A DNA stretch of 19,318 bases from a bacterium (GCA_024278215.1 JAJRTR010000061.1:1-19318), one strand, 5' to 3'. Numbered from the stretch's first letter, positions 2,865 to 19,318 are shown. The notes: generated from the sequence alone by a model not told the origin. Numbers and translations: made by a program.

Positions 2865-4685
2865 CTATTCCCGCGTTCCTATCCTTAGAACAACAAAATC
2901 AGCATCTTCATTCTTATAGAGTTTCTCTATTTCGTCTTTGTATCTGTTTGTGATTTTCTTCAGCCTTGCCTGTCCGTTAGCCGTGGCTTCTTGATTCTTC
3001 GGAGAGAAAGGTCTTACATATAAAGCCTTATGAATCCGTTCGAGAGGGTGATTGTCTTCCTGTTTGCTTTTGACTTCGAAAAATTCATGTTCAACAGCTT
3101 CCAGCATTTGCTCGTTGTAGACAAGATCGTATGGATGCGCGTAGGAGATCCCCATCGAGTCTGCATACCTGACAGGCACATCGAGGTCCTCTGCCATCGA
3201 GATCACAGCAACCGGAAAGTCCATTTGTTCGCCCGCCACGGCTATCTGTCCGATGAGGCTGCAATGATCAAGGAATTTCTCGCCGATTTCCTCCAGGTCG
3301 TAATATTCGCCGTTTGCGAATTTTACACGGCTTCCTTGCCTGCCGATAATTTTCAGATACCCTTAGTGATCCAGTATACCCATATCTCCTGTGTGGAAAA
3401 AGCCGTCTTTAGAAAGCACCGAAATATTTATTGCGGGGAGATTGAGGTAGCCGGAGAAAACGCTGTCGCCCCTGACCGTGATCTCGCCGGGTTGCCCCGG
3501 AAGCACCTGTCTGCCTTCCTCGTCCAATATTTTAACTTCGAGGCCCGGTATAACCTTGCCGACAGTGCCCTGTTTCTTCCCGCCCGGCATATTTATTGAT
3601 ATTACAGGTGATGTTTCGCTCATTCCGTAGCCTTCGACAATTGCGAGCCCGAGTTTATTTTCAAATATATTTTCGACACAGGCCGCAAGTTTTGCCGCTC
3701 CGGAAATGCAGGTTCTTGTGTGGTCGAGGCCTGCTGCCGCCAGCGCTTTCGGGATATATTTTTCGTCGACATTCATGTCCAGCTCGACGTATTCGCCGTT
3801 TGAAATCTGGAAGATTTTACCGCTGATAAGATCGAGAAGATTCGAGAAAGTGCGAGGCACGCCGGGCAGTATCGTCGGCCTCACAGCAGCGAGATCGAAT
3901 GCGAACGTTCCTTTGCGGCAGTAGGCGAGCGTACCCCCGCTGAAAAGAACCAGATATGAGATGATTGTCTGCAATATATGCGCGGTAGGCAGGTATGCCA
4001 GGCAGATGTCGTCCCGGCGAATGTCCAATAATTCGGCACATGTTCTTGCGTTTGCCATAATATTGTTATGGCTGAGCACAGCGCCTTTAGGCTGACCGCT
4101 CATGCCGGAAGTATAAACGATTCGTGCGGGAGTATCGCCGATGATTCCCTGGATGCGCTCATCAACGGCTTCGCGGTTTATCGCCGTTTTTATAAGGGTA
4201 TCGTAACGCACTATGCGCTCGTCATCTATCTCATCAGGGATTCTTCCGAACGCTACAATCCATTTAAGAGACGGCATCATTCCCGGAGGTATCATCGAGA
4301 TGGTTTCGAGCCTCTGCCGGCGGTCCACGAATATAACACTTATCTCCGAGTCGTTGATTTTATGAATGATATTATCTTCATTATCGTTGCTGTAAATTCC
4401 TACCGTCGCACCGCCGCACGCCTGCACGGCGAAATCCGCAATATTCCATTCTTCTCTCGTCGAGGACAGGATGCCGGCTTTGTCTCCTGCTACAAAACCA
4501 CATTCCATAAGCCCGGTTGCAAGTGAAAAAGTATCTTCAATAAGGCTGCGATACGACTTCACTATCGAATATTCACCTCTTTCGTCTTTCGACGACATCG
4601 CCGGTGCGTCACTATACAGTAATGCAGCGTTTCTTATCGCTTCTACAATGCTGACGGACTCGCACACTTTTTGAGGTAATCCCAT
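2865..4685 (-). pseudogene. Long-chain-type acyl-CoA ligase (AMP-forming), interrupted by in-frame TAA
   Basis: The intact enzyme would activate a carboxylic acid to its acyl-CoA using ATP. The first 440 codons carry the ATP motif YTSGMSGQPKG (191-201), GYGMSETSP (352-360) and TGD (432-434). Translation then meets TAA at 3363-3365. The same frame continues without shift as GYLKIIGRQGSRVKFANGEYY (motif GYL-I-GR expected directly after TGD-x5) to a normal C-terminal domain ending at 2865. The full reading frame is 607 codons, the usual family length. So one base change separates it from an intact gene. Alternatives are a sequencing or assembly error or stop readthrough. The C-terminal segment ATANGQARLKK has Gln where the catalytic lysine is normally expected, if my alignment is right. 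The start has a good site (GAGGGGAAG) and an upstream promoter match. Confidence 0.85.
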
Positions 4686-5362: not shown

Positions 5363-6808
5363 TTACTTCTTTTTCTTTTTGTCATCTTCGGGTTCGGGTT
5401 TTGTCACTTTGCCGGTCATGACGAATTCATGGATGCTGCGCGCGGCGACTTTGCCCTGTCCCATAGCGGAGATAACGGTGGCTGCGCCTGTGACGATGTC
5501 GCCGCCCGCAAAAACACCTTTTTTCGATGTTTCCAGTGTGTCCGGGTCTGCAACTATTGTGCCCCAGCGTGTTGTCTTGATGTCGGGAGTAGTCATGGGA
5601 ATCAGCGGGTTTGACCTGTTGCCGAGCGCCGGTATGACAGTATCGCATTCGATGACAAATTCGCTTCCTTTTATCGGTATGGGCCTGCGGCTGCCGGAAT
5701 CGTCCGGCTCGCCAAGCTCCATCCTTATGCACTCGACGCCGACAACATGGCCTTCGTCGTTGCCGAGTATACGCACAGGGTTTGTGAGCAGTTCGAGTTT
5801 GACGCCTTCCTGCTCGGCATGATGAATTTCTTCATTACGCGCGGGCATCTCGTCGCGGCTGCGCCTGTAGACGATAGTCGACTCCGAACCCATGCGCAAA
5901 GCCGTGCGCGCCGAGTCCATGGCGACATTTCCGCCGCCTACGGTGATGACTTTTTTACTGATAATCGGCGCGGTGGCATATTCGGGGAACTTGTATGCTT
6001 TCATGAGGTTCGAGCGTGTCAGGTATTCATTTGCCGAGTAGACGCCGACGAGGTTTTCGCCGGGAATGCGCATAAAGATGGGGAGTCCCGCGCCTGTGGC
6101 TACGAATATCGCGTCGTAGCCGTTATTCAGCAAGTCGTCGACGGTGCCGGATTTGCCGACGACGAAGTCTTTGCGTATTTCCACACCGAGCTTTTCGAGG
6201 CCGCCTATTTCGTATTTCACGATTTCTTTTGGGAGCCTGAACTCGGGGATGCCGTACACGAGAACGCCGCCGGTCACGTGGAAGGCTTCGAATATCGTGA
6301 CATCGTGGCCGAGTTTGACGAGGTCTCCGGCAACAGTCACACCGGCAGGCCCGGAACCCACGACACCGATCTTCTTACCTGTGGGGGGCGGCATGTCGGG
6401 GATGACCATATCGCCCGCGCGGCGCGCGTAATCGGCAGCGAAGCGTTCGAGTCTGCCTATTGCAACGGGATCGCCTTTCTTGCCGAGAATGCAACGCGCC
6501 TCGCACTGCATTTCCTGCGGGCACACTCTGCCTGTTACCGCCGGCAGCGTATTCTGTTCTTTCAGCGACCATGCGGCTTCGATGAACTTGCCCTCTTCGA
6601 TAAGCAGTATGAATTTAGGGATGTTGATATTGACGGGACACCCTTTCACACAATTGGGCTTTTTACATTTCAGGCAGCGCTGTGCTTCCTGCACAGCAGT
6701 TTCCTCGTCGTAGCCGTAAGGGACTTCATCGAAGTTGTGTCTCCTGCGGCGCGGGTCCTGCTCGGGCATTTTATGCCTTGGAATCTTTTTGCGTTCTTTC
6801 ACATCCAT
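5363..6808 (-). CDS. nfnB: NfnB/GltA-type NADPH-dependent flavoprotein subunit
   Basis: This 481-residue protein has the full layout of the NfnB / glutamate synthase small-subunit family. A cysteine-rich iron-sulfur domain comes first (C45, C48, C53, C57; C96, C102, C106). An FAD-binding GSGPAG (151-156), an NADPH-binding GGGNVAMDSA (291-300) and the second FAD motif GGDIVTG (435-441) follow. The C-terminus is a charged lysine tail. In Nfn enzymes this subunit holds the bifurcating FAD, binds NADP(H) and exchanges electrons with ferredoxin. The annotation glutamate synthase is less likely because no large subunit is nearby, while the next gene upstream ends in an NfnA module, the natural partner. 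The start at 6808 has only a weak ribosome site (GGA), so coupling to the upstream gene is possible across the 169-bp gap. Confidence 0.92.
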   Translation of the reverse strand: MDVKERKKIPRHKMPEQDPRRRRHNFDEVPYGYDEETAVQEAQRCLKCKKPNCVKGCPVNINIPKFILLIEEGKFIEAAWSLKEQNTLPAVTGRVCPQEMQCEARCILGKKGDPVAIGRLERFAADYARRAGDMVIPDMPPPTGKKIGVVGSGPAGVTVAGDLVKLGHDVTIFEAFHVTGGVLVYGIPEFRLPKEIVKYEIGGLEKLGVEIRKDFVVGKSGTVDDLLNNGYDAIFVATGAGLPIFMRIPGENLVGVYSANEYLTRSNLMKAYKFPEYATAPIISKKVITVGGGNVAMDSARTALRMGSESTIVYRRSRDEMPARNEEIHHAEQEGVKLELLTNPVRILGNDEGHVVGVECIRMELGEPDDSGSRRPIPIKGSEFVIECDTVIPALGNRSNPLIPMTTPDIKTTRWGTIVADPDTLETSKKGVFAGGDIVTGAATVISAMGQGKVAARSIHEFVMTGKVTKPEPEDDKKKKK

Positions 6809-6963
6809 TGCTTTTTTCCGTCTCTCTTTTGCCGCTCTGACCGGCGCGGCTTGATATTTTTTGATTCTGCTGCTTTCTTTTGCCGGTGTTATTCAACAAT
6901 ATACACAAAACGGGTTTGCGCAGGGCACACATCGTTGTTGTAAGTGTGTGCTAACCGGCATCT

Positions 6964-6980
6964 GTGAAATATGTGTGCTA
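6964..6980. repeat. GTGAAATAT repeat, copy 2, overlapping a stop codon
   Basis: GTGAAATATGTGTGCTA matches copy 3 at 13 of 17 positions by eye. Its last three bases, CTA at 6978-6980, are the TAG stop of the minus-strand NuoG-NfnA fusion gene. Confidence 0.5.
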
Positions 6981-9470
6981 ATGGGCATCACATCTGCACT
7001 GGTGGCCGCTTCCGTGCAACTCGGCGTCCTGTGGCAGAGCGTCCACTTCTTCCTTTTTAAAGGACGCCTGGCGCTGCACCACCTCGAGCCAGTTGATCTT
7101 GTGTCCGTCGAGGAACGGGCCGTCGACACATGCAAATTTCGTCTCGTCGCCGAGCGAAACCCTGCACGCGCCGCACATTCCGGTGCCGTCGAGCATCAGC
7201 GGGTTCATCGCTGTCTGAGTCGGCACGCCGAGTTCTTTTGTGACATCCGAAACGAGCATCATCATGAACGTGCAGCCGATGATGTATGACTGGTCGATCT
7301 TCTCTCCGCGACCGTCCAGCATTGAAATCACTTCCTGGATGCCGCCTTTCATCCCGACCGAGCCGTCCTTGGTGACAATAATGAATTCGTCGGAAACTTC
7401 ACGCAGTTTATCTTCCCAGTGGAGCAGGTAGTGGGCAGCGGCCTCTTCGATGCAGATAACTTTGTTGCCCGCTTCCTTCATGGCGCGGGCGATGGGCAGC
7501 ATCGCGCCTACCCCGTAGCAGCCGCCGGCGCATACAACTGTGCCGTACTTTTTAACTTCCACTGGTTCGCCGAGTGGTCCGGCGAAGTGAGCCAGGTGGT
7601 CGCCGGTCCTGAGTTTTGCAAGTTCGCGGCTGGACCTGCCTACCTCGAGTGTCACGAGTGTTACTGTACCCTTTTCCGGATCAAAGTCTGATATTGTATA
7701 TGGTATTCTTTCGGATTTTTCGTTTGCCATCGCGATGACGAACTGCCCGGGTTTGCATGTGGTCGCGATCTCGGGCGCGAGCACAGTCGTCATGAATGTG
7801 TTGGGGACGATCTCGACTTTTTCGAGAATTCTGAACGGTTTATCGTCGTCTGGTTCGACAGTCGATTTATCCGCCTCGGATGTTTTTCCCTTCGTACCGA
7901 TTGCGCTTAGCCCGCACACTATTCCGGAAAGTTTGTGGCCTCTGTAATACTTCGGCAGCGCGTCCACGTCGTCGCAGGGCGACGGTTCGGGAGCGGCGGG
8001 TTTTTCGACTTTAAAGTTATTGTCTGCCAGCTCTTTTGTGATGGCCGCCGCATTGTCGAAACTGAAACCGTCCGCGCCCATCTTCTTCGCCAGTTCGCAG
8101 ACGAGTTGCCAGTCGGCAAGTTGTCCGCGCGGGGGGCGGGCAGCGGCCTTCACTGCCTTTACTTCACCTGCGGTATTAAGGAACGTGCCGTCGACTTCCG
8201 TAAGCGCCGCCGCGGGCAGGAACACGTCGGCGGCGAGTTTTGCTTTCGAATCATACAGGTCGGCTACAATCAGGGCGTCGAGCGCGTCAAGTGCCGTGTC
8301 GGCTATGAATGCGCCGGTCGTGTAGACGGCCTTCGCGCCGCCCGTGCCGACCGGTTCGCCGTCGGCTTTCGCGACGATGAAGTTATCCGACTTCATGACA
8401 TCTGTCGTAAATTTTCTTAATATGTAAAGTTCCTCGCGCGTCGCCTGTTCGTGAGCGATCATGGCGAATTGCGAGCCGGAGAAGGCCTTAAGTTTCGCGG
8501 CGGCCTGTTCGAGCGCGTCGTCGAGGCCGGTTTTGATAAGACCGTCTTCCACACGTATCAAGCAGGACATTTCCCTTGCGGGATTGTCGAGCAGTTGCGC
8601 GGTCGCGAAACGACCGACAGCACATATACGTGCTTCACGCGCCGGTTCGGTCATACTCGTGGCGACAGCCTGTCCGTCTTTGATTTTGAGTTTCAGCGAA
8701 CAGCCCTGAGCGCAGAGGATGCAGGTTGAGAGTTCTTCGGAATCCGGCGCGCCGTGCCATTTAGCGAACCGGTCGGTTAATGTGCCTGTGGGGCATATAT
8801 CGATGCAGGCGCCGCAGAACTTGCAGTTGGTTTCCACATGCAGTCGGTCGAAAGCAGTGCCGATGCGGGCGTCTTTGCCGCGGTTCTGGAAGTCGATGGC
8901 GGCCTTGCCGTGTATCTTTTTGCAAATTCGGGCGCAACGACCGCAGAGCACGCAGAGGTTATAATCGCGGTCCATGAACGGGTCGTCGCGCTCAATATCC
9001 ATATTCTTATATATGATAGGCAGATCGAATTCAGTGATGTTGTGTTCAAAGGAAAGTTCGCGCAATTCACAGTCGTCGCGGTTGCTGCAGAAAGTGCAGC
9101 GGGTGGCTTTGCCGGTTTTGAACGGGCGGGGGCGGTACTTCTCGCACAGGTCCCTGTGGTAGCATACGAGGCAGGGACTGGTGTGTCCGCTGAGCATTAG
9201 TTTAAGGATTTCCCGGCGTGTTTCGATTATCTCATCGGTTTTAGTGTTGACGACCATGCCGTCGTCGGCGGGCGTAGTGCAGGAAGTGGGGTTGCCGCGC
9301 ACGCCTTCGATGTTGACGATGCAAAGCCGGCAGGCGCCGTATGGTTCGAGTGCGGGGTGGGCGCAAAGCGTAGGGATTCTTATCCCGGCTCTCTGTGCCG
9401 CTTCGAGGACGGTGTCGCCCTGTTGCGCCCTTACTTCCTGTCCGTCTATAGTAAGTGTGATTTCGCTCAT
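6978..9470 (-). CDS. NuoG-like iron-sulfur subunit fused to NfnA-like FAD/[2Fe-2S] module
   Basis: This 830-residue fusion reads in order as follows. A plant-type [2Fe-2S] domain has C36, C47, C50, C64. A NuoG-type His-Cys region has H96-x3-C100-x2-C103-x5-C109, followed by a second C125-x2-C128-x5-C134. Two [4Fe-4S] clusters have C173/176/179/183 and C216/219/222/226. A further FdhA/NuoG-type [4Fe-4S] has C250, C253, C257, C283. A shortened molybdopterin-domain remnant covers about 285-465. From about 545 it is NfnA: FAD motif RIPYTISD (588-595), NAD-binding VCAGGCYGVGAMLP (646-659) and the terminal [2Fe-2S] DGTGMCGACR with D761, C766, C769, C781. NfnA is normally a separate protein of about 280 residues. 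The ATG has AGGAAGGA six bases upstream. The gene follows the NuoF fusion by 95 bp. It probably conducts electrons between the NADH site of the NuoF part and the Nfn flavins. Confidence 0.93.
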   Translation of the reverse strand: MSEITLTIDGQEVRAQQGDTVLEAAQRAGIRIPTLCAHPALEPYGACRLCIVNIEGVRGNPTSCTTPADDGMVVNTKTDEIIETRREILKLMLSGHTSPCLVCYHRDLCEKYRPRPFKTGKATRCTFCSNRDDCELRELSFEHNITEFDLPIIYKNMDIERDDPFMDRDYNLCVLCGRCARICKKIHGKAAIDFQNRGKDARIGTAFDRLHVETNCKFCGACIDICPTGTLTDRFAKWHGAPDSEELSTCILCAQGCSLKLKIKDGQAVATSMTEPAREARICAVGRFATAQLLDNPAREMSCLIRVEDGLIKTGLDDALEQAAAKLKAFSGSQFAMIAHEQATREELYILRKFTTDVMKSDNFIVAKADGEPVGTGGAKAVYTTGAFIADTALDALDALIVADLYDSKAKLAADVFLPAAALTEVDGTFLNTAGEVKAVKAAARPPRGQLADWQLVCELAKKMGADGFSFDNAAAITKELADNNFKVEKPAAPEPSPCDDVDALPKYYRGHKLSGIVCGLSAIGTKGKTSEADKSTVEPDDDKPFRILEKVEIVPNTFMTTVLAPEIATTCKPGQFVIAMANEKSERIPYTISDFDPEKGTVTLVTLEVGRSSRELAKLRTGDHLAHFAGPLGEPVEVKKYGTVVCAGGCYGVGAMLPIARAMKEAGNKVICIEEAAAHYLLHWEDKLREVSDEFIIVTKDGSVGMKGGIQEVISMLDGRGEKIDQSYIIGCTFMMMLVSDVTKELGVPTQTAMNPLMLDGTGMCGACRVSLGDETKFACVDGPFLDGHKINWLEVVQRQASFKKEEVDALPQDAELHGSGHQCRCDAH

Positions 9471-9507
9471 TGCAATCCTTCCTTATTTAAAAGCTTTCCG
9501 CGTCACA

Positions 9508-9568
9508 TTCCGAAATTCGGAACGATGGTTCAAAATATTAGGCCCGCATTGGTGAAATATGCGGGTTA
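9508..9568. repeat. GTGAAATAT repeat, copy 3, with two hairpins at a gene end
   Basis: A near-perfect palindrome, TTCCGAA (9508-9514), A, TTCGGAA (9516-9522), is followed by CCCGCAT (9543-9549) pairing with ATGCGGG (9559-9565) around a 9-nt loop. GTGAAATATGCGGGTTA spans 9552-9568 and its TTA is the TAA stop of the NuoF-GltD fusion gene. On the minus-strand RNA a hairpin therefore begins directly after that stop, ahead of the next gene in the operon. There is no long T-run, so an RNA-stability or attenuation role is as likely as termination. Confidence 0.6.
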
Positions 9569-12500
9569 GTGTCCTTTCGGCTGTTTCGACGAATGCTCCA
9601 GCGCTTCGAGGTCGCATCTCAGGCAGCGTTTCGCTTCGAGAACGGCGGCTGCGGTGGTGATTCTTTCCTCGACTTCATCAAATGTTATTTTCCTGATGCC
9701 GCCCGGCACATGTGGTATAGCCGGGCGTGCTAGTCTCTCGATCTCTTCGTCGGTAAGTTCGACCGGCGGCACATATTCACAAGGTTTCAGCGACCGGTAT
9801 TTGCGTTTAACGACTCTGCCCGAGAGGAACCTGCGGATACTGCGTGCCGCAATTTTTCCGTGACTTATGGCAGTCACGACGTTCAACGGTCCCGTTACCA
9901 TATCGCCGCCCGCGAAAACGCCTTCGATGTCGCCGAGATTCGTTTCCCTGTCGACAATAAGCGTACCCTTACGGGATGTTTCAAGTCGTTTTTCCAGTTT
10001 ACCATTTTCAAGGAACTCGAGGCTGGAAGTCTGCCCGATAGCGACAATGACTGTGTCGCATTCGATGACATAATCCGAGCCATCGACCGGAATCGGGCGG
10101 GGCCTTCCGCCTTCTTTCCGGGGTGGACCCAGTTCCATTTTGACACATTCGAGTCCAATGATCCTGTCTTCTTTGACGACGACCTTTTTCGGGCCGGCGA
10201 GGAACTTTATTTCGATGCCTTCTTCCTGAAGTTGTTCGATTTCCTCTTCGAGCGCCGGCATCTGTTCCATAGCGCGGCGGTAAACGATGAACACTTCCTT
10301 TGCGCCGAGCCTCAGCGCGGTGCGTGCCGAGTCGACAGCGACGTTCCCTCCGCCGATGACAGCGACGGTATCTCCGATATTAACATCGCGCCTGCGGTTT
10401 ACATCCGCCAGGAATTTGACGCCGTACAAGACACTTTCATGTTCTGCGCCTTCGATCGGGAGATCGAACGGTTTGTGTGCTCCGACCGCCAGGAACACCG
10501 CGTCGTAGCCGTCACGTTTGAGTTGGCCTATTGTGAAATCCTTGCCGAGTTCCTGTCTGGTTTTTATCTCGACGCCGAGAGCCTTGATGTAATTGATGTC
10601 ATAATCGAGTACACGCCACGGCAGCCTGTATTCAGGAATGCCGACCGCGAGCATACCGCCGGGCACGCCGAGTTTCTCGAATATCGTGCATTGATAGCCC
10701 CACTGCTGAAGATAATAGGCCGCCGCGAGACCCGCCGGTCCCGAGCCGACGATGGCGATTTTCTGTTCCTGCGTAACTTCCGCTTTCTCCGGCATAAGCC
10801 GGTTGCGCCGTTCGTAGCTCGACGCGAATCGTTTCAGCGCGCGGATAGCGATGGGGTCACCCTCTTTTCCGGCTTCGCAGTTCCTTTCGCACGGATGGGG
10901 ACATACGCGACCGCATATTCCGGGCAGCGGATTTTCGACGCGCACAACGCGAATGGCGTCCTCGAAATGTCCACGCGCGATATGCCCGATATACACAGGT
11001 ACGTCCTGGTTTATCGGACATGTGTACTGGCAGGGTGATGAAATAAGGCTCTTGCAGACCATCGCGTCGCAACGTTTGCGTCTTATGTGGTCGACGAATT
11101 CATCCTTAAAAAAGCGGAGCGCGCTCAGAACAGGATTCGGCATCGTCTGCCCGAGCCCGCAGAGCGAGCCGTTTTTGACTGTTTTCGCGAGTTTTTCGAG
11201 CTTGTCGAGATAGCTCATGTCCGCCCGGCCTTCGATTATATCTGTGAGAAGTCTCAGCAGATGTTGCGAACCCATCCGGCACGGCACACACTTTCCGCAA
11301 GATTCACTATGCGTGAAGTCCAGGAAGTATCTTGTAACATCGACCATGCAGGAGGTGTTGTCCATAACGATCATGCCGCCGGAGCCCATTATCGAACCGA
11401 CTTTCGCCAGTTCGTCGTAATCGACTTTCAGGTCCGCGAGTCTTGCCGGTACGCTTCCGCCGGACGGCCCGCCGGTCTGGACCGCCTTGAACTTTTTGCC
11501 CTTCGGTATGCCGCCGCCGATGTCGAAAATAATTTCATGTATTGTTATACCCATCGGCACTTCGATAAGGCCGGTGCGCTTGATCTTGCCCGCCAGCGCG
11601 AATGTCTTTGTCCCCCTGCTTTTCTCGGTTCCATAGCCGGCGAACCACTCGGCGCCCCTGTACAATATCGCGGAAACATTCGCGAGTGTTTCAACATTAT
11701 TTATATTTGTCGGCTTGCCGTGCAGACCCGCCTGTGCCGGGAACGGCGGCCTGGGCCGCGGCATCCCGCGCTTGCCCTCGATGGATGCCATAAGCGACGT
11801 TTCTTCGCCGCAGACGAACGCGCCGGCACCCATTTTTATTTTTATATCCAGATTGAAACCGGTTCCCATGATATTTTCGCCGAGGAAACCGAGTTCCTTC
11901 ATCTGCCGTATAGCGTTTTCGATCCGCGCGATGGCCAGCGGGTACTCCGCGCGTGCGTATACTATCGCCTTCGTCGCACCGATGGCGTAAGCGCCGATGG
12001 CGAGTCCTTCGAGCACCGCGTGGGGGTCGCTCTCGAGCACCGCGCGGTCCATGAACGCGCCGGGGTCACCCTCGTCCGCATTGCAGATCATATACTTCTG
12101 GTCCGACTCTGACCTCAGCGCGAAACCCCATTTGACACCTGTGGGGAAACCCGCCCCGCCGCGCCCGCGCAGTCCCGAGGCTTTCACTTCGTCGCAGACT
12201 TCCTGCTGCGTCATGCCGAGAGCGCGTACGAGTCCTTTATAGCCGTCGCGCGCCAGGTAGTGGTTCACATTCGTCGGGTCGGTGTGGCCTGCGTTTCTGA
12301 GTACGACACGCACCTGCGGCTTGATCATCGGCAGTTCCTCGAACTTCGGAATGTCGTCGACCGCCACATCGCCGAACGTACACATAGCTTTTTCGCTGAC
12401 CACCTCGCCACCGACAATAAGTTTGCCGACAAGTTTCGAGACAAGCTCGGGCGATACGTCGCGGTACATGATACGCCTGCCGTCGCTCAATCCGATTTCG

Positions 12501-12718
12501 ACGAGCGGTTCGGCGTAGCACATGCCGAGACAGCCGACCTCGACGATGTCGGCGTCGACGGATTTTTCCGCCAGTTCTTTTTCGAACTCGGCACGCACGG
12601 CATCGGCGCCGGCGGCGCGTCCGCAGGTAGCCGCGCCTATCAATATTCTCGGTTTTTCAAGCCGATTGAAATCTTCCCATTCGGTTACAGCCTGCTTCCT
12701 GATATCATCGAACTTCAT
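9566..12718 (-). CDS. NuoF-like NADH/FMN subunit fused to GltD/NfnB-like flavoprotein
   Basis: This is one 1050-residue frame. Residues 20-110 are a thioredoxin-like domain with only three candidate ligands (C32, C63, C67). Residues 130-545 are NuoF: GLRGRGGAGFPTG (182-194), CNADEGDPGAF (212-222), GAGAFVCGEETSL (297-309) and the cluster SCGKCVPCR with C474, C477, C480 and C520. Residues 550-630 are a GltD-type iron-sulfur domain (C550, C555, C563, C567, C602, C606, C610, C614). The FAD/NADPH module follows: GSGPAG (658-663), GGGNVAVDSA (789-798), GGDMVTG (937-943). The C-terminus ends with AKRCLRCD (C1032, C1035), a motif usually near the start of GltD. HydB-type subunits carry a 2[4Fe-4S] ferredoxin at this place, so the GltD part replaces it. 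The ATG overlaps the NuoE-like stop by four bases (ATGA), a sign of translational coupling. Confidence 0.94.
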   Translation of the reverse strand: MKFDDIRKQAVTEWEDFNRLEKPRILIGAATCGRAAGADAVRAEFEKELAEKSVDADIVEVGCLGMCYAEPLVEIGLSDGRRIMYRDVSPELVSKLVGKLIVGGEVVSEKAMCTFGDVAVDDIPKFEELPMIKPQVRVVLRNAGHTDPTNVNHYLARDGYKGLVRALGMTQQEVCDEVKASGLRGRGGAGFPTGVKWGFALRSESDQKYMICNADEGDPGAFMDRAVLESDPHAVLEGLAIGAYAIGATKAIVYARAEYPLAIARIENAIRQMKELGFLGENIMGTGFNLDIKIKMGAGAFVCGEETSLMASIEGKRGMPRPRPPFPAQAGLHGKPTNINNVETLANVSAILYRGAEWFAGYGTEKSRGTKTFALAGKIKRTGLIEVPMGITIHEIIFDIGGGIPKGKKFKAVQTGGPSGGSVPARLADLKVDYDELAKVGSIMGSGGMIVMDNTSCMVDVTRYFLDFTHSESCGKCVPCRMGSQHLLRLLTDIIEGRADMSYLDKLEKLAKTVKNGSLCGLGQTMPNPVLSALRFFKDEFVDHIRRKRCDAMVCKSLISSPCQYTCPINQDVPVYIGHIARGHFEDAIRVVRVENPLPGICGRVCPHPCERNCEAGKEGDPIAIRALKRFASSYERRNRLMPEKAEVTQEQKIAIVGSGPAGLAAAYYLQQWGYQCTIFEKLGVPGGMLAVGIPEYRLPWRVLDYDINYIKALGVEIKTRQELGKDFTIGQLKRDGYDAVFLAVGAHKPFDLPIEGAEHESVLYGVKFLADVNRRRDVNIGDTVAVIGGGNVAVDSARTALRLGAKEVFIVYRRAMEQMPALEEEIEQLQEEGIEIKFLAGPKKVVVKEDRIIGLECVKMELGPPRKEGGRPRPIPVDGSDYVIECDTVIVAIGQTSSLEFLENGKLEKRLETSRKGTLIVDRETNLGDIEGVFAGGDMVTGPLNVVTAISHGKIAARSIRRFLSGRVVKRKYRSLKPCEYVPPVELTDEEIERLARPAIPHVPGGIRKITFDEVEERITTAAAVLEAKRCLRCDLEALEHSSKQPKGH

Positions 12719-13185
12719 TCTATCTCCTTAAGAATCTGCTTTGCCTTCTGAGGTGTCATGCGCCCGTATACTGTCTTGTCGATAACCATGACCGGGGCGA
12801 GTGCGCAGGAACCGAAACACGCCACGCGGTCGATACTGAACTTGTAGTCCGGTGTCGTCTCGCCGGGTCCGATACCCAGTTGTTTGCATACTTCGCTCAT
12901 TATCCGCTTCCCGCCGCGCACATGGCAGGCCGTACCCTGGCACACCCGCACGATGTGGTCGCCGGGCCGGGTGAAACGGAACTGGGCGTAAAATGTCGCC
13001 ACCCCGTATATTTCATTTTCGGAAACGCCAAGGTATTCCGATATTTCCTTCACCGCAGCCTCGGATATGTAACTATTCTTTGATTGTACTTCCTGGAGGA
13101 TGGGTATCAAGCTTGAACGCTCGATTTCATACTTCTCGAAAATCGGTTTCAATTCATTTGAAATATTCTTTTCTGCCGTTGGCAA
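12715..13185 (-). CDS. nuoE: NuoE/HydC-like [2Fe-2S] subunit
   Basis: This is a 156-residue thioredoxin-like subunit of the NuoE/HydC/HndA family, which passes electrons to or from the NADH-FMN subunit. The [2Fe-2S] ligands are C82-x4-C87 (VCQGTACHVRGG) and C123-x3-C127 (CFGSC). The motif GVATFYAQFRF (61-71) is typical. The length matches the family. The frame has no ATG near the family N-terminus, so I take TTG at 13185, preceded by AGGTGGTAGGA. It overlaps the NuoF fusion by four bases, so the two are translated together. Upstream there is a small palindrome, TGCAG-TC-CTGCA (13233-13244), which might be an operator. It is 141 bp from the NifU-like gene on the same strand. Confidence 0.93.
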   Translation of the reverse strand: MPTAEKNISNELKPIFEKYEIERSSLIPILQEVQSKNSYISEAAVKEISEYLGVSENEIYGVATFYAQFRFTRPGDHIVRVCQGTACHVRGGKRIMSEVCKQLGIGPGETTPDYKFSIDRVACFGSCALAPVMVIDKTVYGRMTPQKAKQILKEIE

Positions 13186-13326: not shown

Positions 13327-13953
13327 TCAGTCGCCGTAATATTGGACTACAAGTTCCGCTACAAGTTGCGTGATGTCTTCTTCGCAGCCGCCGCATTCCG
13401 TGCCGCACTTTGTGCGCTCCTGCACAGCCTCGAACGTTTTCGCGCCGTGCTCGACAGCTTCCTCGATCTCTCCCCTTGTGACAGCCAGGCACTCGCAAAG
13501 GATGTCTTCCTTGCGCCGCGCGTCAATCCTGTCTTCCTGGCCGGACTTTCTGAAATACTCCTCGACCGCCGCTCTCAGCGCCTTATCGCCGAGCACCGAG
13601 CAGTGTATCTTCTGATCGGGAAGCCCGTCCAGTTCATTTATAATATCCTGCGGTGTCAGCCGCATCGCCTCGTCCAGCTTCATACCGACAACCATCGTCG
13701 AAAGCATGGATGTGCTGCCGATGGCGCTGGCACAGCCGAATGTTTTCCACTTGCAATCCGCAATAGTATCATTCTCTTTGTCGACCTTGATCCAGACTTT
13801 CATCATGTCGCCGCAGGACATGCTGCCGACCTCGCCGACCCCGTCCGCGGCATAAGTCTCTTCGTCCTCGGTCATTATATTCCGAGGATTGAAAAAGTGA
13901 TCCTTAACTTTTTCGGAATATACCCAACCCTGTCCATCCTGTGATTCCGCCAT
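13327..13953 (-). CDS. nifU: NifU-like Fe-S scaffold with BFD-type [2Fe-2S] domain
   Basis: The 208-residue protein begins with an IscU/NifU scaffold domain, with the three expected cluster-assembly cysteines C47 (SCGDMM), C74 (FGCASAIGS) and C118 (KIHCSVLG). A BFD-like [2Fe-2S] domain follows: C153-x-C155 and C183-x3-C187-x2-C190. The C-terminal Nfu domain of classical NifU is absent. The protein assembles Fe-S clusters in the cytoplasm. No cysteine desulfurase lies beside it. As the first gene before a set of very cluster-rich subunits, it probably serves their maturation. The frame stays open to 14100, but the family start (YSEKVKDHFFNPRN) and a GGGTGA site favour ATG at 13953; ATGs at 13959 and 13989 are alternatives. 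Confidence 0.88.
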   Translation of the reverse strand: MAESQDGQGWVYSEKVKDHFFNPRNIMTEDEETYAADGVGEVGSMSCGDMMKVWIKVDKENDTIADCKWKTFGCASAIGSTSMLSTMVVGMKLDEAMRLTPQDIINELDGLPDQKIHCSVLGDKALRAAVEEYFRKSGQEDRIDARRKEDILCECLAVTRGEIEEAVEHGAKTFEAVQERTKCGTECGGCEEDITQLVAELVVQYYGD

Positions 13954-14006
13954 GTTCATCACCCGCTTCTTTGCAGTATACTTTTGCATGTCCGGGCCAC
14001 CGCGGA

Positions 14007-14016
14007 CGGACGTCCG
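14007..14016. promoter_or_regulatory. Perfect palindrome in the nifU-like leader
   Basis: CGGACGTCCG is a 10-bp perfect palindrome placed about 20 bases downstream of the candidate -10 box of the redox operon, where a repressor could bind. Position and symmetry are the only evidence. Confidence 0.25.
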
Positions 14017-14042
14017 AGAGGGCGCGTACAATACAAGCGTAA

Positions 14043-14051
14043 AGTATAGCA
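14043..14051 (-). promoter_or_regulatory. Extended -10 promoter candidate for the nifU/redox operon
   Basis: On the minus strand TGCTATACT is an extended -10 (TGn plus TATACT). No good -35 lies 17 bases upstream (TTTCGG). Initiation would be near 14036, leaving a leader of about 80 nt to the start at 13953. Confidence 0.4.
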
Positions 14052-14193
14052 TCGGTTTTTTCAATCCGAAAGTGGTATAAAAAAGTCGGGCGCGCGACAT
14101 GTTTAATCTGTCATGCCGAAGAGCCGACCGGATTTTATGCTGCGGCGTTATACCGGCGCAGGCACATCACATCCGGCAGGCAATGAAAAAATC

Positions 14194-15615: not shown

Positions 15616-18600
15616 TTATCTGGTGATCCTGAATTTCCTTGCTGTAATAGTGCCGCGTACGGCACCGCCCGCACCGGCTGATTCGATGAAGTCGTCGATC
15701 AGTGTGAAATCTATCCCTTCTGTGAATTGCGTGCCCTGAACCGTGACGATGTCGGGTTCGTGCGAGACCGGGTACATGCCGCATTTGTCGACTTCTTCGT
15801 CGCATATATAGGAGTCGCCGTTGCAGTCTGTGCCTGCAACCACGTAGTGCTCGCCCGCCTCGACCTCGAACATGCTGTATGCGCCGCCCTCCGCGCCGAG
15901 CTGCGTCTGTGACACTGTGTCGCAAGTATCCGATGTGCATGTGTCGGGCGCGATGGCGAGGATATAAATTTCGTCGTTATCACAAGTCGCGGGCGGCTGT
16001 GAGCCTTCTACCCGCATCGCAACCTGTATGGTCGCGTTGCCGCCGTTGGACGTGATGTCGATTGTGCCTGTGTACGAGCCCGCGTCGAGCCCGCTCCTGT
16101 TTACATTTACTGTGAGTATGAAATTGTCGCCGCTCGATGTGTAGGAAGTCGACATCCAGTTGCCGCCGCTGTTCTCCGTGTTGGTGATACTATTTATAAC
16201 GAGGTCGCCGCCGCCCGTGTTGGTGATAGTCACCTGCATGGAGATGCTCGAAGCGCTGAAGTCGAGGGAAGTCGCTGAAAGCTGCAAGGCGGGGTCCTGA
16301 GGCTGCGAGCCGTCGCCCAGTTCGATAGCGGCCCGGACAGCCGCGTAGGCGTTGATGAGGCCCGCGCCGTACTGGTTGTCTGTGCCTGCCGCGCCGAGGT
16401 CGGTTGCGGTCTGCTCGAGTATGGATACGAGCTGGTCGGGCGTGATGTCCGGGTTTGCGGCTTTCACGAGCGCCGCGACGCCCGCCGCATGCGGTGTCGC
16501 CATCGATGTGCCGTCATAATAGGCATAACCCGTATCGTTGTTATTGACATCGTCGCGGATGGTGCTGAGGATGCCGTCGGCCTGGCTGCCGCCCATCGAG
16601 TCGCCGCCCGGGGCCATTATGTCGAGTCCGGGGCCCGCGTTCGAGTAGCTGGTCTTCACGCTGTTTCTGTCCACCGCTCCGACCGCCACCGCGTGGTTGC
16701 AGATAGCGAGCGGGTTGAGAGCGTTGTTGCTGGATTCGTTGCCCGAAGCGACGAACACAGTGACGCCCGCGGCATAGAGTTGATCGAAGAGATCGTTATA
16801 CTGCGCCGGGCAGCTTTCTCCGGGTTCGCCGCCGAGGCTGATGTTGATGATGTCGGCGCGGCGCTGGGGCAGGGTGCCGGAATCGTTAGGCAATCCGCCC
16901 GCGTAGAGCATTCCCTGCATGATGTCGTAGTCTGTGCCGTAGCCCGCGCCGAGCACGCGCACCGGCATGATGGACACGTTCCAGTTTATGCCCGCCACTC
17001 CTTTGCCGTTATTGGTTTCAGCACCGATTGTTCCCGCGACATGTGTGCCGTGGTAGCCGTTGTGGTCGTAGCTCGTGACCGGTATTGCGCCGCTTGCACA
17101 TCTCGAATCCGCGACATCTTCGGGGTCGCTGTCGATCCCGCCCGTACCGTCACATTCAATGTCCGTCTGACTTACAAAGTCGTAGCCCGCTATGAGATTG
17201 GCTTTAAGATCAGCATGATTCTTCACGATGCCCGTGTCGACTACCGCCACCACCACGTCCGACGATCCTGTCGTAAGTCCCCATGCCTGCGGGAGTTGTA
17301 TCAGCGGATAATGCCACTGCTTGCCGTACTGCGGATCATTCGGTATCGTCTTTTTCCTGTGGATGCTGTTGAGCGACGCGTATTCAACGCCGGGCAGTTC
17401 GTTAAGTCGCTCGCATTTGGCGACGGTATACTGCTTCGCTTCGTCCGCGTTCATGCCGGATATATTGCCTCTGAGCAACGCTATGCCGCTCTGGCTCTGC
17501 CTCGCCACCGTCAATCCGCTGTCGCCCGCGATTGCCGCCGCGTCGCTGCCGGGCCGGACTTTCACAAGCACTTCGCCGTTTATGTAATTTGCTGATTCGC
17601 AATAAGATATCCGCGCGCTCTTATTGCCGTAGCGCACACGTCTGCCCGTGTCGCGGAGCGGCATCGGGCGGATCATCACCGGCGCGGCGAGCATGTTCGC
17701 CGACCTCGTCGGTCCCGCCGCTCTGGATGTCGCCGCCGCCGGGAGGTCCACCGTTCCTTTTATGCCGCCCTGCGAGGCCGTCGAGCCGAAGCTGTCGATC
17801 CCCAGCGTCTTCGTATCCGTACCGCCGCGTACGTCTGTGACTGTGAGTGTGACGGAGTATTCACCCGGCGCGTCGGCATAGAATTTATACTTCTTATCAT
17901 TGACCTTCTTCAACCTGCCGCCATCGCTCGAAAAACTGTACGTAAGCGTATCGCCGTCGGGATCGCTCGCCGAGGCGTTCAGGAGCGAATAGTCGTTTCC
18001 AGTGAGTACAACGGATTTAGATTTTGTGAAGCTCGTGATCGACGGCTCGCTGTTGGCCGCATCGTCGACGCTTACGGGCGTATCGGTGTTGTCGACAACA
18101 TCTTCGTCCACTCTGCATCCGGGTGTGTAGGTGCCGGGTTCCATATAGAAGCAGGTTCCCGTGTTGCCGCTATCGACGATGAACCAGTAGTCCGAGTCGT
18201 CGCAGCGGACTTCGAGCCAGCTGTATGTGCCGCCCGACACAGCGCACGTCACCACATATTCGTCGTCTACAGTTCCCGACGTCGGCGACACGGAAACGAC
18301 GACCGTAAGGGGCGTGGGTTCGCCGACCGTCACCGGCGCGTCAACATTATCTATGGACATCCGGTTTATCCTGCAACCCGGTGTGTATGAGCCTGCCGCG
18401 GAGTATTCGCACGCTTTTGTCCCGTTGCTGAGAAGCGACCACGAATCCGAAGTGCGGCAGCGGCCTTCCATCGAGTTGTAGCTCGTGTTTGTCGTGCCGC
18501 ATGTAAGTGTGTATGTATCGTTTATGGTGCCGGACGTCGGCGTGACCGATGCTGAAATGGAATAGGGAAGCGCGATATGCACCTGCTCCTGCATCGTCAT

Positions 18601-19236
18601 TTTTACCGTTTCGTCGTTGTCGAGCTGTTGTACCGCCTCGGCGATAGTCGTGCAGGCGGAGAAGTTTATATTCCCGCCGGCCGCCGCAGTCTGCACCTTT
18701 GTATATGCCGCCGCGAGTTTATCAATGCTGAAAGATTCGAGGCTGTTCTGATCTTTCGTAAATGAATAAACGACATACTCGGAAATCGGGTTGACATCGA
18801 GCCCGGATGTGCCGGTCACGAAAGACCTTATCTTTCCGGCCTCCGTCGAAACCACAACCGCCATGTTCGATGTGATTGTAGAGGCATTCGAGGGGAGCGT
18901 TATAACAAAGTTGCCGTTTACGATGTCGGCAGTTGCAATCGCCCGCCCCTTCAGATTCCCATTGTCGTCGAGGTAATAAAGTCCCGCAAGACCGTTTGCG
19001 ATAGCGTCGAGGCCGCTGACCGCGGCAGTCGTTCGCGCACTCGCTTTTGCCGCGCTCGAGCCCGAAGGCACGCGCGCTGTGCCTGTGATTCTCGTTGCCG
19101 TCTCGCCGGGCGACGGTGCCGGCGCAATACCGCCGGGCGACGTCGAGCCGCCACCACCGCCGCCGCATCCGTACAGCATCGTCGCCAGCAGCATCAGTAC
19201 TGCCGGAAGTGTTAGTCCTTTTTTCGTCATTTTCAT
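15616..19236 (-). CDS. Subtilisin-family (S8) lipoprotein protease with PKD-like and BACON-like domains
   Basis: The 1206-residue protein has a lipoprotein signal peptide with lipobox LYGC (C24) followed by a glycine run, so it is predicted to be anchored outside the cytoplasm. A spacer region comes first, then two tandem domains with four cysteines each (about 228-304 and 310-391), then a PKD-like domain (about 398-480). The protease propeptide-like segment (INGEVLVKVRPGS, 552-564) leads to the S8 domain with catalytic D667 (VVDTG), H732 (HGTHVAGT), S911 (GTSMATPHAAG) and oxyanion N833. A BACON-like domain (about 981-1077) and a cysteine-rich tail follow. The frame opens 11 codons earlier, but GGAGG six bases before 19236 and the signal peptide fix this start. 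It probably degrades external protein; the substrate is unknown. Confidence 0.93.
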   Translation of the reverse strand: MKMTKKGLTLPAVLMLLATMLYGCGGGGGGSTSPGGIAPAPSPGETATRITGTARVPSGSSAAKASARTTAAVSGLDAIANGLAGLYYLDDNGNLKGRAIATADIVNGNFVITLPSNASTITSNMAVVVSTEAGKIRSFVTGTSGLDVNPISEYVVYSFTKDQNSLESFSIDKLAAAYTKVQTAAAGGNINFSACTTIAEAVQQLDNDETVKMTMQEQVHIALPYSISASVTPTSGTINDTYTLTCGTTNTSYNSMEGRCRTSDSWSLLSNGTKACEYSAAGSYTPGCRINRMSIDNVDAPVTVGEPTPLTVVVSVSPTSGTVDDEYVVTCAVSGGTYSWLEVRCDDSDYWFIVDSGNTGTCFYMEPGTYTPGCRVDEDVVDNTDTPVSVDDAANSEPSITSFTKSKSVVLTGNDYSLLNASASDPDGDTLTYSFSSDGGRLKKVNDKKYKFYADAPGEYSVTLTVTDVRGGTDTKTLGIDSFGSTASQGGIKGTVDLPAAATSRAAGPTRSANMLAAPVMIRPMPLRDTGRRVRYGNKSARISYCESANYINGEVLVKVRPGSDAAAIAGDSGLTVARQSQSGIALLRGNISGMNADEAKQYTVAKCERLNELPGVEYASLNSIHRKKTIPNDPQYGKQWHYPLIQLPQAWGLTTGSSDVVVAVVDTGIVKNHADLKANLIAGYDFVSQTDIECDGTGGIDSDPEDVADSRCASGAIPVTSYDHNGYHGTHVAGTIGAETNNGKGVAGINWNVSIMPVRVLGAGYGTDYDIMQGMLYAGGLPNDSGTLPQRRADIINISLGGEPGESCPAQYNDLFDQLYAAGVTVFVASGNESSNNALNPLAICNHAVAVGAVDRNSVKTSYSNAGPGLDIMAPGGDSMGGSQADGILSTIRDDVNNNDTGYAYYDGTSMATPHAAGVAALVKAANPDITPDQLVSILEQTATDLGAAGTDNQYGAGLINAYAAVRAAIELGDGSQPQDPALQLSATSLDFSASSISMQVTITNTGGGDLVINSITNTENSGGNWMSTSYTSSGDNFILTVNVNRSGLDAGSYTGTIDITSNGGNATIQVAMRVEGSQPPATCDNDEIYILAIAPDTCTSDTCDTVSQTQLGAEGGAYSMFEVEAGEHYVVAGTDCNGDSYICDEEVDKCGMYPVSHEPDIVTVQGTQFTEGIDFTLIDDFIESAGAGGAVRGTITARKFRITR

Positions 19237-19318
19237 CTCTGACCTCCGCTTTTTCAAGTGTTTTTTCATACGCAGAACCCGGGGGGGCTTAAAACTGCTG
19301 TTATTTATGGAAAGGATA

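Follow-up and report, generated by a model that had tools for sequence, protein, structure and literature searches.

A gene cluster joining NuoEFG-type and Nfn-type parts, read as a composite Bfu-Nfn transhydrogenase

The DNA analysed here is a stretch of 19,318 nucleotides from a bacterium (GCA_024278215.1 JAJRTR010000061.1:1-19318), called the window below. It contains four genes that follow each other on the minus strand, encoding a NuoE-like subunit, a NuoF-GltD fusion, a NuoG-NfnA fusion and NfnB (Table 1), and we read this cluster as a composite Bfu-Nfn transhydrogenase, a new variation on the known Bfu and Nfn enzymes. The frames of the first two genes overlap by 4 bases (12715-12718), and the remaining intergenic gaps measure 95 and 169 bases. 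In Pfam, NuoE matches 2Fe-2S_thioredx (PF01257 at 2.1e-52), so the BfuC-type thioredoxin-like [2Fe-2S] subunit is present; NuoF-GltD matches Complex1_51K, NADH_4Fe-4S, Fer4_20 and Pyr_redox_2; NuoG-NfnA matches Fer2_4, Fer4_Nqo3, part of Molybdopterin, and DHODB_Fe-S_bind; and NfnB matches Fer4_20 and Pyr_redox_2. No H-cluster domain was found among the Pfam domains of the four-gene set. By a count of ligand motifs, not of measured clusters, the set would bind 1 flavin mononucleotide (FMN), 3 flavin adenine dinucleotides (FAD) and about 13 iron-sulphur (Fe-S) clusters. A preliminary description of this DNA had listed the same four collinear genes with their overlap, up to four flavins, at least ten Fe-S clusters and no H-cluster; the four open reading frames, the Pfam matches and the motif count all agree with it.

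Table 1. Features of the cluster, in window coordinates; residues are numbered within each protein
Feature	Position	Strand	Length and basis
NuoE/HydC/StnA/BfuC-like subunit, thioredoxin-fold [2Fe-2S]	12715..13185	minus	156 amino acids (aa), TTG start; Pfam
NuoF (BfuB/HydB/StnB-like) + GltD fusion	9566..12718	minus	1050 aa; Pfam, PDB comparison
NuoF part, residues 1-548	11075..12718	minus	Pfam, StnB/HydB alignment, cysteine motifs
GltD domain, residues 549-1036	9611..11074	minus	Pfam, motifs
Lys629 of GltD domain (ALKRF)	10832..10834	minus	equivalent of StnC K170
NuoG + NfnA fusion	6978..9470	minus	830 aa; Pfam, PDB comparison
NuoG part, residues 1-375	8346..9470	minus	Pfam, cysteine motifs
Truncated molybdopterin-oxidoreductase-like domain, residues 243-490	8001..8744	minus	Pfam, structure model
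NfnA-like domain, residues 546-825	6996..7835	minus	fold match, FAD and [2Fe-2S] motifs
Cys651 in GG[C]YG (ordinary NfnA: GGG)	7518..7520	minus	alignment
Cys733 in G[C]TFMM (ordinary NfnA: GP)	7272..7274	minus	alignment
NfnB, bifurcating-FAD subunit	5363..6808	minus	481 aa; Pfam, motifs
Glu121 of NfnB (RLERF)	6446..6448	minus	equivalent of Glu ligand, proximal [4Fe-4S] of NfnB
Arg191 of NfnB	6236..6238	minus	equivalent of P. furiosus NfnB R201 at bifurcating flavin N5

Recurrence of the cluster was examined in a scan of one genome per species. The NuoG-NfnA fusion was detected, full or nearly full, on ten contigs (57-65% identity), and a shorter contig (L010) carries the same fusion, cut at the contig end. 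The carriers are Desulfobacterota, other 'Deltaproteobacteria', one Neomarinimicrobiota and two Omnitrophota metagenome-assembled genomes (MAGs). On all these contigs NfnB comes next, and NuoE and NuoF precede wherever the contig is long enough. A chance fusion or an assembly error was rejected, since both the gene order and the NuoG-NfnA fusion recur in other genomes. The fused group forms one clade in the NfnA tree (100/99) and in the NfnB tree (100/100), and likewise one supported group in the NuoF tree (100/100). In Desulfobacterota, Aminicenantes and Thermoplasmatota each of these parts has a gene of its own, five in all. Because fusion and gene order recur, with a single NfnA/NfnB clade and with the same parts unfused in relatives, the Nuo and Nfn parts would act together.

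The fused protein is the sole NfnA found in the window's genome (95% complete), and each fused relative likewise has one NfnA, with a possible exception in L009, where a second, distant match lies in a 735-aa frame. The comparison thus speaks for the earlier proposal of a single system made up of Nuo/Hyd-type and Nfn-type parts: the two halves are fused in about a dozen genomes across phyla and adjoin each other unfused in relatives, rather than always occurring apart. In the phylum of L001 the fused protein was present in 3 of 297 genomes, one of them at 49% identity, and so is rare there. Where the window's own order has an NfnA, it is of the ordinary kind and mostly shares a frame of 775-826 aa with NfnB; since, in addition, NfnA and NfnB of the window fall with Deltaproteobacteria in the trees, acquisition of the cluster by transfer is possible.

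The fused NfnA domain differs from ordinary NfnA at its nucleotide loops. It retains the FAD motif ERIPYT at 587 and the [2Fe-2S] motif DGTGMCGACR..CV (DGTGMC at 761), and its model (predicted local distance difference test, pLDDT, 87) best matches the small subunit of Pyrococcus furiosus NfnI (5jca_S; Z 37.4, root-mean-square deviation 1.9 over 269 residues). In NfnA fused or adjacent to NuoG, the Rossmann loop is GGC(Y/F)G instead of GGGxG, and a later loop is GCxxM instead of GPxxM. These two loops make up the nucleotide pocket of the ferredoxin-NADP reductase fold. Across distinct NfnA loci, both cysteines are present in 39 and absent from 64, and no locus has only one. Eleven of the 39 are fused to NuoG and 19 adjoin it; most of the other 9 are located where a contig is cut off, and L024 has a broken NuoG frame. 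By comparison, 1 of the 64 ordinary (Gly/Pro) NfnA adjoins NuoG. It lies on L012 (5364-12558), a Chloroflexota MAG contig on which NuoE, NuoF-GltD, NuoG and ordinary NfnA (GGF/GP) are consecutive genes; the same parts seem to have come together there separately. The NAD_binding_1 domain (PF00175) was found in 0 of 26 two-cysteine NfnA (the window and 25 relatives) versus 21 of 23 ordinary ones. The two kinds part at one branch of the NfnA tree (100/97), which means that the perfect correlation of the cysteines stands for few events.

A precedent exists in P. furiosus NfnII, which is reported to lack NAD+-dependent activity (PMC6405883) and is changed in the same first loop (GAYTG, 5vj7_B). Taking together the GGC and GC loops, the missing PF00175 match and this precedent, the NAD site of NuoG-linked NfnA has probably been lost, and NAD(H) is probably handled by NuoEF rather than by the NfnA part. 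The preliminary description is to be corrected here: with two invariant cysteines in the nucleotide loops and the NAD-binding signature gone, the NfnA part is probably not an ordinary NAD(H) site.

The cysteines lend themselves to another explanation, in which the two residues at the NfnA flavin serve as a redox-active pair, or bind a metal or cluster, and NfnA exchanges electrons with a thiol, a persulfide or some other acceptor while NuoEFG supplies NADH. Such a role would fit their being invariant and all-or-none in 39 bacterial and archaeal sequences, one at each pocket loop, with no other NfnA-specific cysteine conserved alongside them in the alignment. However, the cluster has no conserved neighbouring gene for an acceptor, contact between the two cysteines is seen in no structure, and the single branch from ordinary NfnA reduces their co-occurrence to few events. 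We consider this explanation unlikely.

The NuoF part matches StnB and HydB end to end as far as their ferredoxin tail (full-length alignment with 7t2r_B and 8oh5_B). The BfuB-type 51K FMN and NADH_4Fe-4S domains are present (PF01512 at 6.8e-47, PF10589 at 8.7e-31); SLBB (PF10531) scored 20.8 bits, under the cut-off of 27, in a region that aligns to HydB/StnB throughout. The cofactor sites comprise an N-terminal [2Fe-2S] thioredoxin domain (C32, C63, C67), the FMN site and an N3-type [4Fe-4S] cluster (C474, C477, C480, C520). Rather than the simple NADH-FMN diaphorase first described, NuoEF may be of the bifurcating Bfu/HydBC kind, so that the complex could hold two bifurcation sites.

BfuB and HydB end in a ferredoxin-like domain (IPR017896) with two [4Fe-4S] clusters (PMC9304861), a putative ferredoxin site. 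In the window's NuoF this tail is absent and GltD begins at its position. The GltD domain has FAD, an NADP(H) fold and two [4Fe-4S] clusters (C563, C567, C606, C610, C614; C-terminal C1032, C1035), the first CxxC having moved to the C-terminal end, as in StnC-type proteins and in the Nfn-ABC structure 9bov. At the cluster position every fused GltD domain has a lysine, and the equivalent StnC K170 is assigned by the Stn authors to a non-bifurcating flavin site; by its sequence, GltD on NuoF is of this non-bifurcating Stn type. Within the fused clade, the GltD tail is found in the window, L001, L002, L004, L007 and L079, and a ferredoxin tail in L003, L005, L006 and L009, as in most unfused relatives; no NuoF of the clade carries both. 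Supported branches of the NuoF tree require at least 4 changes of the GltD label. From this mutual exclusion and these repeated changes, GltD and ferredoxin modules appear as alternatives at one position, and the idea that GltD is an invariable component was discarded. Of what the preliminary description had put together, the NuoG-NfnA fusion and the gene order recur in genomes, but the NuoF-GltD fusion is not constant. A further GltD domain, 48% identical to that of NuoF, occurs in the window's genome in a 1531-aa frame with additional ferredoxin-type domains (G000:C152, L161 3167-7759).

These data bear on a reading in which one operon encodes two enzymes, an Stn-like NuoEFG-GltD transhydrogenase and NfnAB, tethered and working apart, with NfnA still using NAD(H). 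NuoEF(G) with GltD is indeed the part list of Stn, and NfnA with NfnB that of Nfn, each resembling a complete known enzyme, and the gaps of 95 and 169 bases point the same way. Against it, the fused clade is old and kept in several phyla, NuoG-adjacent NfnA has no NAD-binding signature, and GltD comes and goes among relatives. Two independent enzymes therefore seem decidedly improbable.

NfnB, judged by its motifs, retains every hallmark of a bifurcating flavin: RCx2Cx4Cx3CPV, GRVCPQE, the Glu of RLERF and the Arg of GIPEFR. The cysteine motifs, Glu and Arg are kept in nearly all NfnB examined, in fused and unfused relatives. This conservation is difficult to reconcile with an ordinary Stn-type (Nfn-Bfu) transhydrogenase whose domains were rearranged and whose Nfn part is a structural relic, as are the several relatives that have no GltD and still keep NfnA and NfnB, and the layout of Stn itself, in which StnC holds GltD inside NuoG and no NfnA homologue exists (PMC10482914). 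Although NuoF is closest to Nfn-Bfu B subunits among solved references and the GltD domain has the Stn lysine, we regard a relic as very improbable.

In the NuoG part, cluster ligands were recognised for a [2Fe-2S] (C36/47/50/64), at H96/C100/C103/C109 and C125/C128/C134, for two [4Fe-4S] within C173-C226 and for an N7-type [4Fe-4S] (C250/253/257/283), and all these cysteines are invariant in fused and unfused relatives alike. Residues 96-134 contain two successive CxxCx5C motifs, compared to one in NuoG of complex I, with six cysteines invariant in all relatives; an extra cluster is possible there. The PF00384 match covers only profile positions 257-353 of 353, and 248 residues of the model align to a 549-residue FdhF-type chain. 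According to this model, the molybdopterin-like domain of NuoG is folded, yet too short for a complete cofactor site, in keeping with the earlier statement that no such site is present.

We conclude, with a probability of roughly 55%, that the four genes encode one soluble complex, in which NuoEFG, as an NAD(H) module of the Bfu/HydBC type, and an Nfn transhydrogenase reversibly couple NAD(H), NADP(H) and ferredoxin. In the proposed mechanism, NADPH would reduce the bifurcating FAD of NfnB. One electron would pass to ferredoxin through the [4Fe-4S] clusters of NfnB; the other would go by way of the NfnA part, using its [2Fe-2S] and FAD but with no NAD bound there, then along the Fe-S chain of NuoG to the FMN of NuoF, where NAD+ would be reduced. 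In the window's form, GltD on NuoF would add another NADP(H) site at the place that serves relatives for ferredoxin docking. Overall, the complex would catalyse the reaction of Nfn and Stn, NADH + reduced ferredoxin + 2 NADP+ = 2 NADPH + NAD+ + oxidised ferredoxin, in either direction. A more elaborate version has two bifurcation sites acting one after the other, one at the Fe-S-assisted FMN of Bfu and one at the bifurcating FAD of NfnB; a flavin relay derived from NfnA and without NAD site would connect them, and in the window an NADP(H) site would stand in for the ferredoxin exit of Bfu. We put this version forward tentatively, the odds being rather against it.

Several points weigh against the single coupled complex. 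The model of the 830-aa NuoG-NfnA protein (pLDDT 63, predicted template modelling score 0.42, 10 sequences in the alignment) was not used for domain placement, being too weak to place NfnA relative to NuoG or to trace their Fe-S path. The loss of NAD binding by NfnA is something we infer, and the two cysteines may instead serve something new. In Methanothrix (L018, L028, L033, L063), NuoE-F-G are followed by a two-cysteine NfnA with no adjacent NfnB, which lies elsewhere in the genome, so that gene order does not support the NfnA-NfnB pairing in this genus; this Methanothrix cluster may correspond to the published F420-Bfu. Finally, L012 pairs NuoG with an ordinary NfnA in one cluster.

Among known systems, StnABC (Nfn-Bfu) of Sporomusa ovata (8oh5; PMC10482914, PMC7483475) shares the NuoE-, NuoF- and NuoG-like subunits and a GltD with Lys at the proximal cluster, and connects NAD(H), NADP(H) and ferredoxin, as predicted for the window's complex. 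It differs in that its GltD lies inside StnC (NuoG) and StnB keeps the ferredoxin tail, whereas in the window GltD replaces the NuoF tail and NuoG has none; Stn also has neither NfnA nor a separate NfnB, while the window has both, NfnA being fused to NuoG. Stn combines a HydBC-type core with a GltD/NuoG protein, and Nfn is without HydBC (PMC10482914). With NfnAB of Thermotoga maritima (4ylf) and P. furiosus (NfnI, 5jca) the cluster has in common the Glu-ligated cluster and the Arg at the bifurcating FAD of NfnB, and the fold, FAD motif (ERxPxT) and Asp-ligated [2Fe-2S] motif (DGTGMCGxCR) of NfnA; the fusion to NuoG and the altered NAD pocket, without NAD_binding_1 match, set it apart. NfnII (Xfn, 5vj7) is an NfnAB homologue that resembles it in having a changed NAD loop, but has GAYTG and GP instead of two cysteines and no known link to NuoEFG.

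The Bfu family, including Bam-Bfu, shares the NuoE/NuoF/NuoG-type core, and for Bam-Bfu the main text of the survey (PMC9304861) proposes a BfuABC module combined with another bifurcating module, HdrA. In the present cluster the partner is Nfn instead, and the window's BfuB has no ferredoxin-type domain. That main text names many third-substrate modules and no NfnA-containing member; among the four fusion patterns given in the consulted part of an Nfn review, none includes Nuo subunits. In line with the preliminary description, which knew of no characterised enzyme with this combination, no paper describing a NuoEFG-Nfn or NuoF-GltD/NuoG-NfnA system was found in the main texts of the open-access literature.

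The cluster's neighbours lie on the same strand. A fusion of a NifU N-terminal domain with a BFD-like [2Fe-2S] domain (13327-14100), 141 bases upstream of NuoE, places Fe-S assembly beside a cluster needing about 13 Fe-S clusters. Downstream, a homologue of aldehyde ferredoxin oxidoreductase (AFOR_N, AFOR_C; 693-2795) might supply reduced ferredoxin. A frame of 606 codons for an acyl-CoA synthetase (2865-4685) has a single in-frame TAA at 3363-3365; the same frame continues on both sides, which indicates a nonsense mutation or a sequence error. A large predicted lipoprotein (15616-19269) combines PKD/Big domains with a subtilase (S8) domain. Promoter and terminator scans gave counts close to the shuffled expectation.

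Nfn and Stn are described as separate, almost mutually exclusive redox solutions, and those who discovered Stn raised the question of a third complex (PMC7483475). The cluster, as we read it, would unite these two solutions of anaerobes to the balancing of NADH, NADPH and ferredoxin. Its seemingly moved NAD site and the alternating tail of NuoF would provide a natural test of which cofactor bifurcates once the modules are wired together, and the alternating modules may also inform how such modules swap in evolution.

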